This document shows, in pieces, positions 267 through 15,971 of a stretch of DNA of 22,439 nt. The notes beneath the pieces were generated by a model. It was not told the origin of the DNA, made no database searches, and saw nothing but the letters and a program-made list of their open reading frames with translations. Each line of letters starts with the position of its first letter. Position 1 is the first letter of the stretch. Both the position numbers and the translations under genes were made by a program. Origin of the DNA: a virus; the IMG/VR virus record IMGVR_UViG_3300046007_013798, positions 1 to 22,439 of that record. One strand, 5' to 3'.

Positions 267-2717
267 TTAGGCATATATATAAATATCACTATTAGAGGTA
301 TTAATATACATTTGGCCAATAGAATTAAGACTATCTCCTGTTCCAAAATTAACAGGAGTACCTATAGGGACCCCAGCTGATCCTGTAACAGTAACTATAA
401 AATCAGATGAGGTTGAAAATACATTATTTGTAGCATTCCAAGCTACTGACCCACTTCTATTAACTACCCATCTATTATTTTCTTGGTCATAGTAAAGAGC
501 AGTACCATAAGCTTCACCACCAATTGTAGTTGTTTGGACAATAATACCACCTTCATTTGGAACTCCTCCTTTAGAACCACTATTTAATAATATAAACTTA
601 TCTTCAATTAATAAATCTTGTACATTAACATATGTTGTAGTACCATTAACAGTTAAATTTCCTGTTATAGTGGCGTTATTAGTAACTGTTAAATCAGTGG
701 TAGAAGTAGTACCATTAATAGTTACATCTTGGTTTAATGTATTTACATATGAAGCAGTTGACGCGTTAGTAGCATTAGTCGCGTTAAGAGCATAAGAAGC
801 ACTAGTTGCACTATCGGCACTTGTAGCGTTTAAAGCATAGGAAGCACTAGTTGCACTGTTAGCGTTTGTAGCATTAAGGGTATAACTTGAACTTAAAGCA
901 TAGGAAGCACTAGTTGCACTATCCGCGCTTGTAGCGTTTAAAGCATAGGAAGCACTAGTTGCACTATCTGCGCTTGTAGCGTTTAAAGCATAGGAAGCAC
1001 TAGTTGCACTATCTGCGCTTGTAGCGTTTAAAGCATAGGAAGCACTAGTTGCACTGTCTGCACTTGCAGCATTTAAAGTATAGGATGAACTTAAGGCATA
1101 AGAAGCACTAGTTGCACTATTGGCACTTGATGAACTTAAAGCATAGGAAGCACTAGTTGCACTGTTAGCATTTGTAGCATTAAGGGTATAACTTGAACTT
1201 AAAGCATAGGAAGCACTAGTTGCACTATCCGCGCTTGTGGCTGTAGAAGCATAACTAGCACTTAATACAGACATTGAACCTGTATCAGCTGATGTTATAA
1301 CTTTACTACCATTCCAAGTAAAATTAGGTCCTACAACATATACTGAACCTGATAATATTTGAGTATCGCTCAATTCATCTCCAAAAGTATTTGAACCTGA
1401 GGAGTATATAATTGAGGATGAGATATAGTTTACTTGGAGTACATTAAATGAGCCGGTGTGAGCTGATAAATCACCATTAATTGTTACATTTTGGTTTAAT
1501 GTATTTACATAGGAGGCAGTTTGAGCACTAATTGCGTTTTGGGCATTAATAGCGTTTGAAGCTGATAAGGCAAAGCTAGACGTACCTATTAAACTACCAC
1601 TAGCAATAGTTATAGAACCACTTAAAATATTGAGAGAACCTGTTAAATTTATAGAACCAGTAGGTATTCCATCTGTAAATGAACCAATATTTAAAGTATT
1701 AGATAGGGCTTTATATGTAATACCATTATTAGCATCCGCAAATAATATAGCGTTATTACCATCACTAGTGACTGTAAATAATGGTCTAACAGTTATATCA
1801 TTGCTAAGACCAGCTACAAATACAGTGTTGGAAGCATTTGCTATAGTAGCATAACTCGCTGTTCCTGTTAGATTTCCTACAAAAGAACCAGTACCTACAG
1901 TAATAGAACCACTGGTTATAGTTATAGAACCAGTTGTAAAACTAATTGAACTGCTTGTAGATGTTATAGAACTTGATGTGAGTGTTATTGCTCCTCCATT
2001 AACTGTTATCCCACTACCACTAACTGTGAGAGAGCCTGTTATAACAGCACTACCTGAGAATGGGAAACCATTGCCAGAACCTCCACTACCACTAGCAATT
2101 ACTTCATTAGCGTATTTACCAATATAGATATAACCACTACCTGAGGTTGGAATGGTTGTGTTATCTCCATCTTGCCTAAATAGAATCCCAGAGTAATAAT
2201 CAAAATACCAGTCCATAATATCACCTGTAGTGATTTGGACTCCATTTTGATCTTTTAACACTACAAGATAATCTAAACCAAAAGAAGGAGGTACAAATTG
2301 AAGAGTACCTCCACTACCACTAGCATAATAATTATTAATAAAAGGAGGAGTACCTACTTTTGGATTATCAGAACCTAATGTTTCATAATTACTTTTTAAC
2401 TTTAAAGCAAAAGAATGAGTAGTTGAAGTAGAACTTTCAGCTTGTGAATCTGCATCTGTAGCTATGTAAGTAGTACCAATTATAGGAACTAAATCAAATT
2501 CAACTCTTTGAACTATAACTCCACTAGAAGTCTCATACATAGTTGTAGGAGGGGATACAGGTGGGGTCTGACCAAAAATAACGTTAGTTCCTATTTGGAC
2601 ATTAGAAGCTATAGTTTCCCCTAACTCTGTTTTAAACATTGAAGTATTAGCTACCCCTGAGAGTTTTTTAAAGGAGATAACTGTTTGAGTTAGGTTTGTT
2701 TTTTTATTAGTAGACAT
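267..2717 (-). CDS. Long repeat-containing tail fibre protein
   Basis: This 816-aa protein has an N-terminal part of about 220 residues (possible attachment region, including the VPPSFGLDYLVVLKDQNGV segment), then a beta-helix-like Ser/Thr/Gly region (about 220-400). A repeat array with nine copies of SATSASYAL follows (about residues 490-645). The C-terminal region contains ITGNLTVNGTTTYVNVQDLL and a tip ending SNSDIYIYA. A short module VNTLNQ(N/D)VTING occurs twice, flanking the repeat array. This is typical of a trimeric fibre shaft between an attachment end and a receptor-binding end. It is the last large gene of the fibre block. The leader is TTTATATTATATAG, with no Shine-Dalgarno. Confidence 0.8.
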   Translation of the reverse strand: MSTNKKTNLTQTVISFKKLSGVANTSMFKTELGETIASNVQIGTNVIFGQTPPVSPPTTMYETSSGVIVQRVEFDLVPIIGTTYIATDADSQAESSTSTTHSFALKLKSNYETLGSDNPKVGTPPFINNYYASGSGGTLQFVPPSFGLDYLVVLKDQNGVQITTGDIMDWYFDYYSGILFRQDGDNTTIPTSGSGYIYIGKYANEVIASGSGGSGNGFPFSGSAVITGSLTVSGSGITVNGGAITLTSSSITSTSSSISFTTGSITITSGSITVGTGSFVGNLTGTASYATIANASNTVFVAGLSNDITVRPLFTVTSDGNNAILFADANNGITYKALSNTLNIGSFTDGIPTGSINLTGSLNILSGSITIASGSLIGTSSFALSASNAINAQNAISAQTASYVNTLNQNVTINGDLSAHTGSFNVLQVNYISSSIIYSSGSNTFGDELSDTQILSGSVYVVGPNFTWNGSKVITSADTGSMSVLSASYASTATSADSATSASYALSSSYTLNATNANSATSASYALSSSSANSATSASYALSSSYTLNAASADSATSASYALNATSADSATSASYALNATSADSATSASYALNATSADSATSASYALSSSYTLNATNANSATSASYALNATSADSATSASYALNATNATNASTASYVNTLNQDVTINGTTSTTDLTVTNNATITGNLTVNGTTTYVNVQDLLIEDKFILLNSGSKGGVPNEGGIIVQTTTIGGEAYGTALYYDQENNRWVVNRSGSVAWNATNNVFSTSSDFIVTVTGSAGVPIGTPVNFGTGDSLNSIGQMYINTSNSDIYIYA
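278..286 (-). promoter_or_regulatory. ATATTTATA motif upstream of the 50-aa gene
   Basis: Exact motif inside the 3' end of the repeat fibre gene, 31 nt before the ATG at 246. Confidence 0.3.
789..1240 (-). repeat. Tandem array of 45- and 63-nt coding repeats in the tail fibre gene
   Basis: Nine copies of the core GAAGCACTAGTTGCACT begin on the plus strand at 796, 841, 904, 949, 994, 1039, 1102, 1147 and 1210. The spacings are therefore 45, 63, 45, 45, 45, 63, 45 and 63 nt. The units encode 15 residues (SADSATSASYALNAT type) or 21 residues, the longer form adding SSSYTL. Both lengths keep the frame, so unit gain or loss would only change shaft length. Confidence 0.9.
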
Positions 2718-11983: not shown

Positions 11984-14374
11984 TTATTGCATCTTATAAG
12001 ATCCCACAGTCAAAGCAGTACCAACCTTATTACCATCTAAAGTGACAGTACCTTCTTTAGCTAATAATTGATTTAATATGGTGTTCATTTGGTCCATTTT
12101 AGCTAAAAGAGGACTTAAATCCATTGAGGGAGATGATGTTGGAGATGAAGAACCTTTTCTTCCTAGCTCTGTCCCAGCTACAACAGAATCATTTTCATTT
12201 AGTTTATAAGTTCCCTTCTCTCCAGAAACAACTAATCCCCCTTTAGGGTCTATCATACCATCATTCAAACCGATAGCTGAAGTTACTGCTTCTTTAAAAC
12301 TAAAGTCAATAGGTGAAATATTAACACCGGGTATTTTGTTAACCAAACGGAGGGCTCCGTTAATTGTCTCAGTGACTAGAATTGCAAAAACATCAAATGG
12401 AGCTAAAAGGACTCCTATAGCTGCCTTCCCTATACTCTTAAACCCAGATTCAAAATCTCCTTTAATTATACTTGTTATTCCTTTAAAAAAATCTTGAACA
12501 TTTTCTAAAGGAATTTTTATATTTTCTGATATTATATTACCAATAGTTTTAAGTCCATTAAGTATTGGAAATAATAATATATTAAGTAAAGGTAAAATAG
12601 TCGCGACTATATCCATTAAGGGAGATATTATATCTAGTATAGGCTCAGCTATCATTACAAATACATCTTGTAATTTAGCCATAGTAGCGTTAAAACGTTC
12701 TTGTACAGATTGAGATTTAAGTTGGGCCGCTAATTTTTCATCACCTAATTTAGCGGCTATAGCGTCATCTGATAAGCCTTGTTTTTTAAGTTTGTTATAA
12801 GCTTCTTGGGCTGTTCCTTCTTTCTCTCCTAATTTAGCTAAAACTTCTCTATCTAAAATAGATTGAGCTAAATCATCACGGGATAACCCAACAGATTTAG
12901 CTAAGGCTTCTTGTTGAATAACATTCATCCTACCAAACTCAGCTGACCCTCCTATTTGCTTAGCAACTTCAGCAGCGGCTTCTCCTGTTTTACCTTGTAA
13001 AGCTAAAAATCTAGCCTGTTCAAAATTTAATTGTTTACCAGTTAATAATTCAGCTTCTATTTCAGACTCAATAGAGGATTGAAAATTAAGTAATCCTTCA
13101 GATATTTTAGAAGCTTGTTCTAAATTAAGACCAAACTTTTTAGCTTGAAGAACATTATCAGCTAAAGCTTTAGTATTTTTATTAAATGTTAAAACTGTAG
13201 CAGCTCCTGTTTTAGCTACTTCTTCAACAATTTCTTTTTCATTAAGAGCTAATTTATTAGTGACATTAAAAGCAGACGCAGCTCCTAATATAGAGGCTGT
13301 ATTTTTAGATAAATCACCACCTGTAGCTTGGGTAATTTTACCTAAAGAAGTAGCAGCTTCAGCACTATAACCAGCTTGTTCTGTTATTTGAGTATAATCT
13401 TTTAATAATTCCCCACTTAATAAAGCATTAGTACCAAAAGCTTTACTTAAAGACATTTGAGCTTTGACTAAATTTTCAGTTGTGATATGAGTTTCACCTG
13501 AAAGAAGGGCTATCTCAGACATTGATGAAACCATATTTAAACTTTCATCATAGCTAACTCCCATATTTTTAGCTAATTCTCCTGTGTTTTTATCAGTTTT
13601 AATTAAAGCATCTACTAATTGAGTTATGGCGAATTGAATTAGATTAGCTTTGGAAAGCATTCCCTTTAAATTTTCTCCTGCTCTTTTAGTGAATTCTCCA
13701 ACAACATTAAATTCTTGACTTAATCCCTCAGCGGCTTGACCAGCTTTTAAGGTATCATTTAAAGCCTCTGAAAAACCAAAGTCTGGGAGTCCAAGTTTTG
13801 AAAGAGCTTTGTCAATTCCACCTGCTATTTTAGGCATAAAGCCTAACTTACTATTTATGTTTTCATAAGTATCTTCAATATCCTTTAAATTTTTTTCTAA
13901 ATCTTGAGTTGATGCTATTTGTTTATCTATCTCTTCTGTTGATTTTCCTTGTTTTATGTATGCATCTCTTACATTTCTTAAATTATTAAGATTTTCTCGA
14001 GTTTGTTCTTTTAATTTTTTAAGAATCTTATCATTAAGATCACTTTCACCTCTTCTAATAGATAAAGCTTGTCTAGCTATATTACTAATATCACTAAGAG
14101 ATGATCTTTGCATTTTAAGATACACATCTTGTTTAGAAAGTTCATTTAAACTATCAGTAAAAGATTTATTAATATAATCTAAATCATCTCTAACACTGTC
14201 TAGTCTATCTTCAACTCCTCTTAAACCATCTTCTAAAGCTCTAACTGCGGTAGTAGCATCTCTAAATTGATTAACATCAAAATTTTGAAAAGGATTAGTT
14301 TCTCCTAATCGTCTATAAGCAGCTTCTAATTTATCTAATAATCTTTGGATTTCTTGAGGGTTAGGAGTAGCCAT
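11984..14374 (-). CDS. Tail tape measure protein (T4 gp29 functional counterpart)
   Basis: This 796-aa protein has the standard tape measure layout. The N-terminal part (about residues 1-180) is a long charged coiled-coil region (VRALEDGLRGVEDRLDSVRD, EQTRENLNNLRNVRDAY). The middle is Ala/Leu-rich and helical with repeated SLGKITQATGG-type segments. Hydrophobic stretches follow at about 565-615 (FVMIAEPILDIISPLMDIVA and onward) and about 645-672 (IGVLLAPFDVFAILVTETIN). A soluble C-terminal tail ends the protein. It sits just downstream of the chaperone pair, the usual place. At roughly 0.15 nm per residue the length suggests a tail near 120 nm, longer than T4 (gp29 is 590 aa); this is inference. 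Sequence identity to gp29 itself is not evident. Confidence 0.85.
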   Translation of the reverse strand: MATPNPQEIQRLLDKLEAAYRRLGETNPFQNFDVNQFRDATTAVRALEDGLRGVEDRLDSVRDDLDYINKSFTDSLNELSKQDVYLKMQRSSLSDISNIARQALSIRRGESDLNDKILKKLKEQTRENLNNLRNVRDAYIKQGKSTEEIDKQIASTQDLEKNLKDIEDTYENINSKLGFMPKIAGGIDKALSKLGLPDFGFSEALNDTLKAGQAAEGLSQEFNVVGEFTKRAGENLKGMLSKANLIQFAITQLVDALIKTDKNTGELAKNMGVSYDESLNMVSSMSEIALLSGETHITTENLVKAQMSLSKAFGTNALLSGELLKDYTQITEQAGYSAEAATSLGKITQATGGDLSKNTASILGAASAFNVTNKLALNEKEIVEEVAKTGAATVLTFNKNTKALADNVLQAKKFGLNLEQASKISEGLLNFQSSIESEIEAELLTGKQLNFEQARFLALQGKTGEAAAEVAKQIGGSAEFGRMNVIQQEALAKSVGLSRDDLAQSILDREVLAKLGEKEGTAQEAYNKLKKQGLSDDAIAAKLGDEKLAAQLKSQSVQERFNATMAKLQDVFVMIAEPILDIISPLMDIVATILPLLNILLFPILNGLKTIGNIISENIKIPLENVQDFFKGITSIIKGDFESGFKSIGKAAIGVLLAPFDVFAILVTETINGALRLVNKIPGVNISPIDFSFKEAVTSAIGLNDGMIDPKGGLVVSGEKGTYKLNENDSVVAGTELGRKGSSSPTSSPSMDLSPLLAKMDQMNTILNQLLAKEGTVTLDGNKVGTALTVGSYKMQ

Positions 14375-14403: not shown

Positions 14404-14438
14404 AAAAAGTAAGACCCTTACTTATATGTAGGGGTCTT
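14404..14438 (-). terminator. Intrinsic terminator after the chaperone unit
   Basis: In gene direction the sequence is AAGACCC, then a short inner stem TAC/GTA with one mismatch, then GGGTCTT (plus 14411-14438), followed by ACTTTTTC. The stop codon of the second chaperone frame (14418-14420) lies inside the 3' arm region, so termination is placed immediately at the end of translation. Confidence 0.75.
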
Positions 14439-14699
14439 CAAAAATTCCGGGGCTTGGATTTTACCTTTAGAATCTATAACTGTGGTTTTACCTTGACCAG
14501 AAGATTTTTCATATTCTTCTCTTTCTTTAGAGTAATAATTTTGTATCTCATTAAAAGTAAATCTTCTAAGCCATATGGGCATGTTATAAATTTCACTCCA
14601 TGAGTATCCTCCTTTACCATGAAATACTATTTCATGAATTTGCTTAAATAAACCTAGTCTAGCTTGAGGGATTATATCAAATGTCAGGCCAAAAAAAGT
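14418..14699 (-). CDS. Second frame of the tail assembly chaperone (gpT-like), probably expressed by frameshift
   Basis: Between the gp26-like stop and the tape measure gene there is an open frame of about 93 codons. From 14690 it encodes 90 residues: GLTFDIIPQARLGLFKQIHE, then VFHGKGGYSWSEIYNMPIWL, then RRFTFNEIQNYYSKEREEYE, ending KTPTYK. The central part (SWSEIYNMPIWLRRFTFNEI) resembles short second-frame chaperones that precede tape measure genes. The only in-frame ATG is about a third of the way in (NMPIW) and would remove the conserved front. The frame opens inside the end of the gp26-like gene at the T7 run. The most economical reading is a frameshifted extension, as in lambda G/T. A homopolymer sequencing error that splits one gene is the alternative. 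Confidence 0.65.
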   Translation of the reverse strand, partial: TFFGLTFDIIPQARLGLFKQIHEIVFHGKGGYSWSEIYNMPIWLRRFTFNEIQNYYSKEREEYEKSSGQGKTTVIDSKGKIQAPEFLKTPTYK

Positions 14700-15402
14700 T
14701 TAGATTTATTGGGATAGCAATCTCCTCATTGCTATCATCTATAAAGGTTAAATCAACATCAGGCTGGGTTTCTTTAATGTGTTTTCTTAAAGCTCTAGAA
14801 TCTCTAGCTAAAAGATAAGTGTCTACAAAAGTTCTAATATCTTTAGGTTCTGAAGAACCATTAACTGAGGTAATTATATATTTTAATCGAGTTGAGAGTT
14901 CAGGAGAATTATCTTTGTTAATTTTTTTTAATCCTTTAATCTCAGCATCTATTTTACTCTCATCATGCCCAGTTAATATTTTATATGTTATGGGAGTACC
15001 ACTGTCAGGTAAGGTATATGGGAAATTATTTTCCCCAGGAATTATAGAAGATTCATCAAAAGATTTATTTTCTAAGGTTGATAAATCAACAGTATACTGT
15101 CTATTATTATAACTGAAGGAATAGTCTTTACCATAACCTAAAACTCTAGCGGCTACTAGTAGAGCATTTTTATCTCCTATAATTAAGTCTTTAATATTAA
15201 TTTTAGTTACAACTAAGGATTTAAGAAGTTCATCTAAAACAATACCTCTTTCAATATAAGCTTGGTTAGTTAAAATATCCTCTTCTTTAGCTGTCATATA
15301 CTTCATTTCTACCTTGCCATCTCTCAAAGGATGACCTTCAGGATATAGTAAACCTTTTGAAGGTAATTCTATAATTTCAGTTGGGAATTTAAATTCACTC
15401 AT
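14677..15402 (-). CDS. 26: Tail assembly chaperone / baseplate protein, T4 gp26-like (T4_baseplate family)
   Basis: This 241-aa protein has the N-terminal signature of the T4 baseplate gp26 family: EIIELPSKGLLYPEGHPL followed by GKVEMKYMTAKEEDILTNQAYI. T4 gp26 is 208 aa. Members of this family encoded next to a tape measure gene look like tail assembly chaperones, comparable to lambda gpG. In keeping with this, its last codons run through a T7 tract (plus 14691-14697) and overlap a second open frame (14418-14699) that lacks an AUG. A frameshift at the run would make a fusion of about 327 aa. It is bracketed by two terminators and has its own candidate promoter motif, so it looks like a separately controlled unit. 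Confidence 0.8.
   Translation of the reverse strand: MSEFKFPTEIIELPSKGLLYPEGHPLRDGKVEMKYMTAKEEDILTNQAYIERGIVLDELLKSLVVTKINIKDLIIGDKNALLVAARVLGYGKDYSFSYNNRQYTVDLSTLENKSFDESSIIPGENNFPYTLPDSGTPITYKILTGHDESKIDAEIKGLKKINKDNSPELSTRLKYIITSVNGSSEPKDIRTFVDTYLLARDSRALRKHIKETQPDVDLTFIDDSNEEIAIPINLNFFWPDI
14691..14697 (-). promoter_or_regulatory. T7 slippery run, candidate programmed frameshift site
   Basis: In the gp26-like frame the mRNA reads AAC UUU UUU UGG CCU GAC AUU UGA. A +1 slip (or -2) of tRNA-Phe on the U7 run changes UGG CCU to GGC CUG and enters the downstream frame, which is open only from 14699. The usable overlap is therefore about 20 nt and the U-run is the only obvious slip site in it. 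Confidence 0.5.
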
Positions 15403-15430: not shown

Positions 15431-15470
15431 ATGAAAACAAAAAAGAGCGCGAAAAATCGCGCTCTCTTTC
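15431..15470 (-). terminator. Intrinsic terminator after the tail tube gene
   Basis: In gene direction there is a perfect 9-bp GC-rich stem (AGAGCGCGA / TCGCGCTCT, plus-strand 15444-15465) with a 4-base loop. A U-rich tract (TTTTTTGTTTT, plus 15443 downward) follows. It starts 20 nt past the tube stop codon. This is a textbook rho-independent terminator and is far more GC-rich than its surroundings. Confidence 0.9.
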
Positions 15471-15485
15471 TATAATTATTTTCTA

Positions 15486-15971
15486 TTAGAAATTCAACAC
15501 ACAGTAATCAGGTTGAACTGTCATTGTTAAATTAATTATTCCTTCGTTATCCCAATTGTATTCACCAAAATTAGATTCAGTAATCAAGGCTCCTTTGATA
15601 ATCCATTGAGATACAACATCCCCTACAGGGCCTAAAACATCAAATGTTAAATCTTTTTTGTAGAAATCAGAATATCCATCTCTACCAGTGATTGATTCAT
15701 GATGTAATCTTACCCATTCCATTACTGATTGGGCACCTGAAGGTGTAATAGGATCAAATAAGGTAAATTGAATAGTACCCCACTTTGTTTTACCCTTTAC
15801 AAATCTTTGAATATTGATGTGGTTAAGCTCAAGAGCTCCTTGTGTTACTGTTATAGCACCAATAGCCTTTACTAGATAGCTTGGGAATCCATCAATATAC
15901 ATAATGAATCTATTCTGCTGTTTAGGCTCAAATGGTGTGAAAAATATTTCGTTTGGATCTAGTACTGCCAT
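15486..15971 (-). CDS. 19: Tail tube protein, T4 gp19-like
   Basis: This 161-aa protein (T4 gp19 is 163 aa) forms the inner tail tube as stacked hexameric rings. It carries the family pattern: PKQQNRFIMYIDGFPSYLVKAI at the N terminus, GKTKWGTIQFTLFDPI and SGAQSVMEWVRLHHE in the middle, and a C-terminal strand DNEGIINLTMTVQPDYCVL. It is immediately followed by an intrinsic terminator (15431-15470), so it is the last gene of the neck-sheath-tube unit. The leader ATAATAAAATACAACA is A-rich without a Shine-Dalgarno. Confidence 0.95.
   Translation of the reverse strand: MAVLDPNEIFFTPFEPKQQNRFIMYIDGFPSYLVKAIGAITVTQGALELNHINIQRFVKGKTKWGTIQFTLFDPITPSGAQSVMEWVRLHHESITGRDGYSDFYKKDLTFDVLGPVGDVVSQWIIKGALITESNFGEYNWDNEGIINLTMTVQPDYCVLNF

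Follow-up and report, generated by a model that had tools for sequence, protein, structure and literature searches.

Tail assembly chaperones of tailed phages are well known to be produced in two lengths by -1 frameshifting, and T4 has been described as an exception (PMC5009743). In phage lambda, a -1 shift (PMC5009743) joins a pair of overlapping frames that lie immediately before the tape measure gene, giving gpG and gpG-T, of which the long form is expected to be minor, while T4 obtains its two lengths, gp26 and gp51, from two genes. Shifts in the +1 direction have been proposed for HSTV-2 and the HF1-group haloviruses (PMC5009743; PMC7230728), archaeal viruses that likewise carry two small genes offset by +1 ahead of the tape measure gene. 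Here, a 22,439-nucleotide stretch of viral DNA (IMG/VR record IMGVR_UViG_3300046007_013798, in full; hereafter, the window) was found to carry a gp26-like gene (G) that ends over a run of seven T's, where a second frame (T) without a start codon of its own opens at +1. Comparative sequence analysis indicated, with an estimated probability of about 0.87, that a short and a long form of one tail assembly chaperone are encoded here, the latter of which would arise by a +1 slip of the ribosome into T. The locus resembles that of T4 in that G belongs to PHROG 150, its short form ends where gp26 ends and its extension sits where that of gp51 sits, but it consists of one gene and a +1 frame rather than two genes. 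It shares the layout of lambda but differs in its +1 offset, in all 160 loci with both parts, and in a site of U7 followed by GG; its likeness to the haloviruses is one of layout.

On the minus strand of the window, the 3' end of G reads CTA AAC TTT TTT TGG CCT GAC ATT TGA, in which the T7 run occupies positions 14691-14697 (Table 1). Between 14699 and a TAA at 14418-14420, the second frame contains no other stop; it overlaps G at +1 and, read from the GGC at 14690, translates into 90 residues (GLTFDIIPQ...SWSEIYNMPIWLRRF...PTYK). No ATG, GTG or TTG was found in this frame of the window between the upstream stop and GGC, and its first ATG is codon 37, within the conserved motif. The initial annotation, which had been made from the sequence alone, described a gp26-like gene ending over AAC TTT TTT TGG, a startless overlapping frame of 90 residues and a fusion product of about 327 amino acids reached by a +1 or, equivalently, -2 offset; coordinates and sequence agreed with this description. 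The core of T (TTTTTTTGGCCTGA) occurred once in the window and in 0 of 100 shuffles and, because the frame, its protein sequence and its layout also recur in about 160 loci, T is more than a chance reading frame.

A protein search of IMG/VR returned 80 loci, in nearly all of which frame 0 ended over TTT TTT TGG CCT, with a long +1 frame spanning it. A second IMG/VR search, which started from the homologue of Microcystis phage Mel-JY01 and used peptide patterns excluding the junction, yielded 80 further loci with 44-61% identity to the Mel-JY01 query. According to profiles of both parts, T lay at +1 in 160 of the 160 loci that held both parts, and none of these was continuous. The bare 16-base DNA word CTTTTTTTGGCCTGAC was also searched in IMG/VR; all 80 loci fetched by it, some on contigs shared with the protein searches, were this junction, with both frames in register. 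IMG/VR searches from LR756508, SP-15 and RM378 gave nothing except SP-15 and RM378 themselves, and a plasmid search with a T sequence gave no match. The initial annotation had proposed that a programmed-frameshift chaperone be judged by conservation of the offset and the U-run in related phages, and by whether relatives carry one continuous gene; both offset and run were conserved, in support of its proposal. One T less would make the frame continuous in the window contig, as if the gene were broken or the true run were six T's long, but the same offset in a 99%-identical contig that also has T7 (L008, among the first 80 loci), in about 160 others and in the isolate phages Flavobacterium phage immuto, Mel-JY01, SP-15 and RM378 makes a sequencing error extremely improbable. 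In the records of immuto and Mel-JY01 (L001 and L002), the extension is annotated just as a short, separate hypothetical protein that starts inside or near the true frame.

Codon statistics were computed for 85 representatives with less than 85% amino-acid identity; relatives were counted separately, so that the probabilities are indicative. Wherever Phe was coded, both Phe codons were TTT (82/82 and 82/82; background 0.80), and the following Pro codon was CCT in 85/85 (background 0.35). The conservation of CCT can be attributed to dual coding, because its T doubles as the second base of a conserved Leu codon read at +1. Downstream of the junction, variation followed the +1 frame and was greatest at its third codon positions (0.27, 0.20 and 0.49 for the three positions in one length class; 0.41, 0.30 and 0.57 in the other). 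The base 5' of the Phe codons was never T in the +1 group, neither in 73 representatives (C 57, G 13, A 3) nor across 163 loci (C 124, G 33, A 6); given the amino acids and codon usage, and ignoring relatedness, zero T in 71 informative cases has a log10 probability of -30. A T at this position would create T_TTT_TTT, the standard -1 heptamer, and the -1 frame meets a stop two codons past the run in 64 of the 73 representatives. As in lambda-type systems, the slippery sequence was conserved across relatives. These sequences indicated that both frames are under selection at a conserved site with a +1 offset, and that TTT TTT, CCT and a base other than T ahead of the run are kept far more strictly than the amino acids require.

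Of the two shifts left open by the initial annotation, +1 and -2, the frame offset held for both, and natural variants of the site favored +1. Four loci (L001, L079, L083 and L168) read TTT CTT TGG, with an interrupted T run, and three (L151, L159 and L164) read CTT TTT TGG, all with the same offset. TTT CTT TGG permits a slip from CUU to UUU or from UUU to UUC and offers no good -2 re-pairing; because of these variants, a +1 slip is favored over both -2 shifting and RNA-polymerase slippage. Slippage by the polymerase on T7, with six-U transcripts read straight into T, would fit the seven-base homopolymer that lies at the exact joint and is conserved in most loci. However, the offset persists over the interrupted or shorter runs TTTCTTT and CTTTTTT, as well as in SP-15, LIS04 and GXN1, whose runs are six T's or fewer, which makes this explanation unlikely. 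A ribosomal -2 shift, as in phage Mu, with the P-site tRNA-Phe re-pairing two bases back, would yield the same frame, and retention of the first Phe codon as TTT, unnecessary for a +1 slip confined to the second codon, is in its favor. Nevertheless, TTT at the second codon could reflect a slip at either codon, and the TTT CTT TGG variants and the distant UUU_C sites are unable to re-pair at -2, so that this shift appeared less likely still. Distant phages carried a T-like frame at +1 over related sites: TCC TTT TTT TGG in RM378, GAA TTT TTT CAC in SP-15, GAG TTT TTT AGT in LIS04, GAA TTC TTT CGT in GXN1 and AAC TTT CTA in LR756508, likewise without T before the Phe codons. All joint-bearing loci had a P-site codon able to re-pair at +1 (UUU_U, CUU_U or UUU_C, with LR756508 read as UUU_C), followed in the main set by a sense codon in the A site (UGG nearly everywhere, UAC in three loci and UUC in one).

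In the proposed mechanism, most ribosomes would stay in frame 0 and produce the short, gp26-like form of 241 amino acids. The remainder, with peptidyl-tRNA-Phe paired to UUU and UGG occupying the A site, would slip by +1 (UUU_U to UUU) and resume reading at GGC, thereby giving the 327-amino-acid form with a gp51-like C-terminal domain. By analogy with lambda gpG/gpG-T, the short form may coat the tape measure protein, while the additional domain of the long form may recruit tail tube subunits. The slippage itself, its efficiency, the choice of +1 over -2 and what each form does are inferred from sequence. A P-site tRNA-Phe slip on UUU_N also accounts for the +1 site UUU_CGU of influenza PA-X (PMC3498833), a eukaryotic virus with an unrelated gene; phage GXN1 has the same TTT CGT, whereas the window has UUU_U UGG. 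A conserved TTT codon also marks the joint in HF1 (TTT-CGC), compared with UUU_U and UGG in the window.

The hidden second half is probably reachable by ribosomes only through a +1 skip on U7. Production of T as a separate protein, through a non-AUG start at a conserved CTG, reinitiation or the internal ATG at codon 37, is suggested by a CTG that overlaps the joint in 57 of 73 representatives, by an ATG at codon 37 in many loci and by an ATG at the joint of LR756511. Against it, the Leu codon is CTA, CTT or CTC in the other 16 of the 73, conservation begins at GGC, well ahead of codon 37, and a fused G-T gene is present in a Bacteroidota locus (L174); a separate T is therefore very unlikely. 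CTG was rejected as a T start codon on account of these 16 representatives. An upstream ATG, GTG or TTG was absent from the T frame of 29 of the 73 representatives, and the absence of any start in the window itself disposed of the possibility, raised in the initial annotation, that the second frame has its own start codon.

The protein encoded by G in the window matched PHROG 150 (baseplate hub, T4 gp26/gp51; E = 6.4e-8), for which SP-15 reached values of up to 3e-31. Pfam T4_baseplate was matched by LR756508, RM378, SP-15 and GXN1; window G and immuto gave no match to this family. In PHROG 150, T4 gp26 spans columns 14-235 and T4 gp51 columns 13-280. The frame-0 proteins of Mel-JY01, LR756508, RM378 and SP-15 end at columns 232-235, and a virtual G-T fusion of the window lengthens the match to column 264. 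From this column mapping, G is the equivalent of the short T4 chaperone and T takes the position of the extra piece of gp51, so that, on sequence, the frame-0 product corresponds to gp26 and the +1 product to the gp51-type extension. T4 gp26 still ends in KEFFELL. Some T sequences weakly matched PHROG 634 (best 4.7e-4) and Pfam DUF6760 (best 3.4e-5). G and T were modeled separately, from family loci. The AlphaFold model of G (pLDDT 91) had gp26/51-type hub proteins as its nearest viral-library models, with strong matches, and HK97 gp13 tail assembly chaperone as its top, weak match in the PDB (E = 0.37). T was modeled as a small helical domain (pLDDT 82), for which neither fold nor sequence gave a match in the PDB. 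In Bacteroidota locus L174 (859-1623, plus strand), G and a DUF6760-type T form one continuous protein joined at FF, which by its sequence is a natural example of a G-T fusion. In L173, also from Bacteroidota, G overlaps at its end with the DUF6760 frame, which lies at -1. Both loci have sheath- and tube-like neighbors and are injection-system-like. Among 198 Bacteroidota genomes, DUF6760 gave two matches.

A candidate stimulatory hairpin precedes the run in the window (Table 1), where its predicted stability is -12.6 kcal/mol (z -4.1). In 34 sequences, 82% of cells were paired, versus 27-52% in slid controls, and compensatory replacements of C-G by U-A occurred in nine sequences and of G-C by A-U in three. 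RNAalifold predicted no consensus structure for the 5' region, though a direct count of base pairs supports this hairpin within the window's subclade. The 54 nucleotides upstream of the run were more stable than synonymous shuffles (mean z -1.5, 73 representatives); on the same measure, downstream stretches gave a z of about -0.8.

Several observations weigh against a single chaperone made in two lengths by +1 slippage. The 5' hairpin is restricted to a subclade and is not family-wide, 3' RNA structure showed just a weak excess near the general background, none of it convincing, and no Shine-Dalgarno-like stimulator was found (score 3.10, versus 3.38 in controls). In LR756511 (L007), the T-like frame is arranged differently and has an ATG that could serve as its start. 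Profiles of G and T gave no significant match to the single T4 gp26 and gp51 sequences, the match of T to the gp51 tail is weak in single sequences, and the function of T is assigned by analogy.

The same gp26/51-type protein with the same Phe-Phe codons occurs in jumbo phages, which differ in that the T-like extension lies at -1. In all 11 such jumbo-type phages (Atu_ph07, Phosso, PA5oct, XacN1, RAS14, 121Q, GAP32, BF, Vibrio 2.275, RaK2 and L301), a T precedes TTT TTC or TTT TTT, giving T_TTT_TTY. Their extensions (L296, L297, L299, L301 and L304-L310) are annotated, if at all, as separate hypothetical proteins. The T-like frame of LR756511 runs open through GGT TTT TTC at -1 and also has an ATG that overlaps the stop of G (TAATG), so that this frame could be entered by a shift or started separately. 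All 12 phages with the extension at -1 thus have the preceding T, and 0 of the 163 +1 loci do. Because T completes the -1 heptamer T_TTT_TTY and other bases leave just the +1 slip, we consider the odds slightly in favor of one family having changed its shift direction, +1 or -1, at a shared pair of Phe codons, with direction set mainly by the single 5' base. A maximum-likelihood tree built from G proteins united the eleven jumbo-type phages in a single clade (100/99) and divided the +1 phages between two well-supported groups, one comprising the window group and LR756508 and the other SP-15, LIS04 and GXN1; RM378 was weakly placed near T4, with long branches. This tree does not reveal the ancestral direction of the shift. 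The two-gene layout of T4 may be a later replacement of the frameshift by gene duplication, an order that the G tree does not establish.

Table 1. Features of the chaperone locus and adjoining genes, in window coordinates.
Feature	Position	Strand	Remarks
Frame-0 gene G	14677-15402	minus	short, gp26-like tail assembly chaperone; 241 aa, FFWPDI included
Shift site AAC TTT TTT TGG	14689-14700	minus	proposed +1 slip on UUU_U; A-site codon UGG
+1 frame T	14418-14690	minus	C-terminal extension of gp51 type; 90 codons, counted from GGC, and a TAA stop; without own start codon
Dual-coded overlap	14677-14690	minus	frame 0 (T)GG CCT GAC ATT TGA; +1 reading GGC CTG ACA TTT GA
TGA stop in -1 frame	14684-14686	minus	two codons past the run; -1 slip unproductive
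Proposed long chaperone	14418-15402	minus	G joined to T at NFF-GLT; 237 + 90 = 327 aa; suggested by the conserved +1 frame
5' hairpin GATAGCAAT-GAGGAG-ATTGCTATC	14713-14736	minus	ends 15 nt before T7; candidate stimulator, window's subclade only
Next gene, tape measure by position	11984-14374	minus	synteny with the gene annotated as tape measure in Flavobacterium phage immuto
Upstream gene, tail tube protein	15486-15971	minus	PHROG 4542 tail tube, E = 1.4e-23

As in lambda, the overlapping frames lie directly upstream of the tape measure gene, identified here by synteny; domain searches of the window gave no match confirming that identity for 11984-14374. Terminator-like hairpins flank the G/T unit on the minus strand, at 15439-15470 in the gap between the tube gene and G and at 14404-14438, overlapping the stop of T, and phage SP-15 has an annotated terminator between tube gene and G. 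Transcription of the chaperone may be separate from that of the neighboring genes. Elsewhere in the window, an 816-amino-acid protein (267-2717, minus strand) with many tandem SATSASYALSS-type repeats is probably a fiber-like structural protein.

The tail assembly chaperones of T4-like phages were reportedly the subject of a 2022 article by Vladimirov, Gautam and Davidson (Virology 566:9). We read the chaperone genes of that article as gp26 and gp51, a reading consistent with the PHROG 150 mapping. Two papers that cite it mention a short and a long chaperone gene in some T4-like phages (PMC10885494) and poly-T -1 signals in T4-like chaperone genes (PMC12846349). In the literature searched, neither +1 shifting in the gp26/51 family nor a switch in direction was described, part of which the 2022 article may cover.

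Conserved recoding has a textbook example in tail chaperones, whose frameshifts are almost always -1; the T4 chaperone family itself appears to frameshift widely, and in the rarer +1 direction. Known hosts of the +1 phages include Flavobacterium, Rhodothermus, Microcystis, Bacillus, Listeria and Streptococcus. As the jumbo relatives seem to use the same codons for -1, the family provides an aligned set of natural sites in which direction is testable by a one-base change. In many phage genomes, the extension would also represent part of a protein that is missing from the annotation or wrongly annotated.
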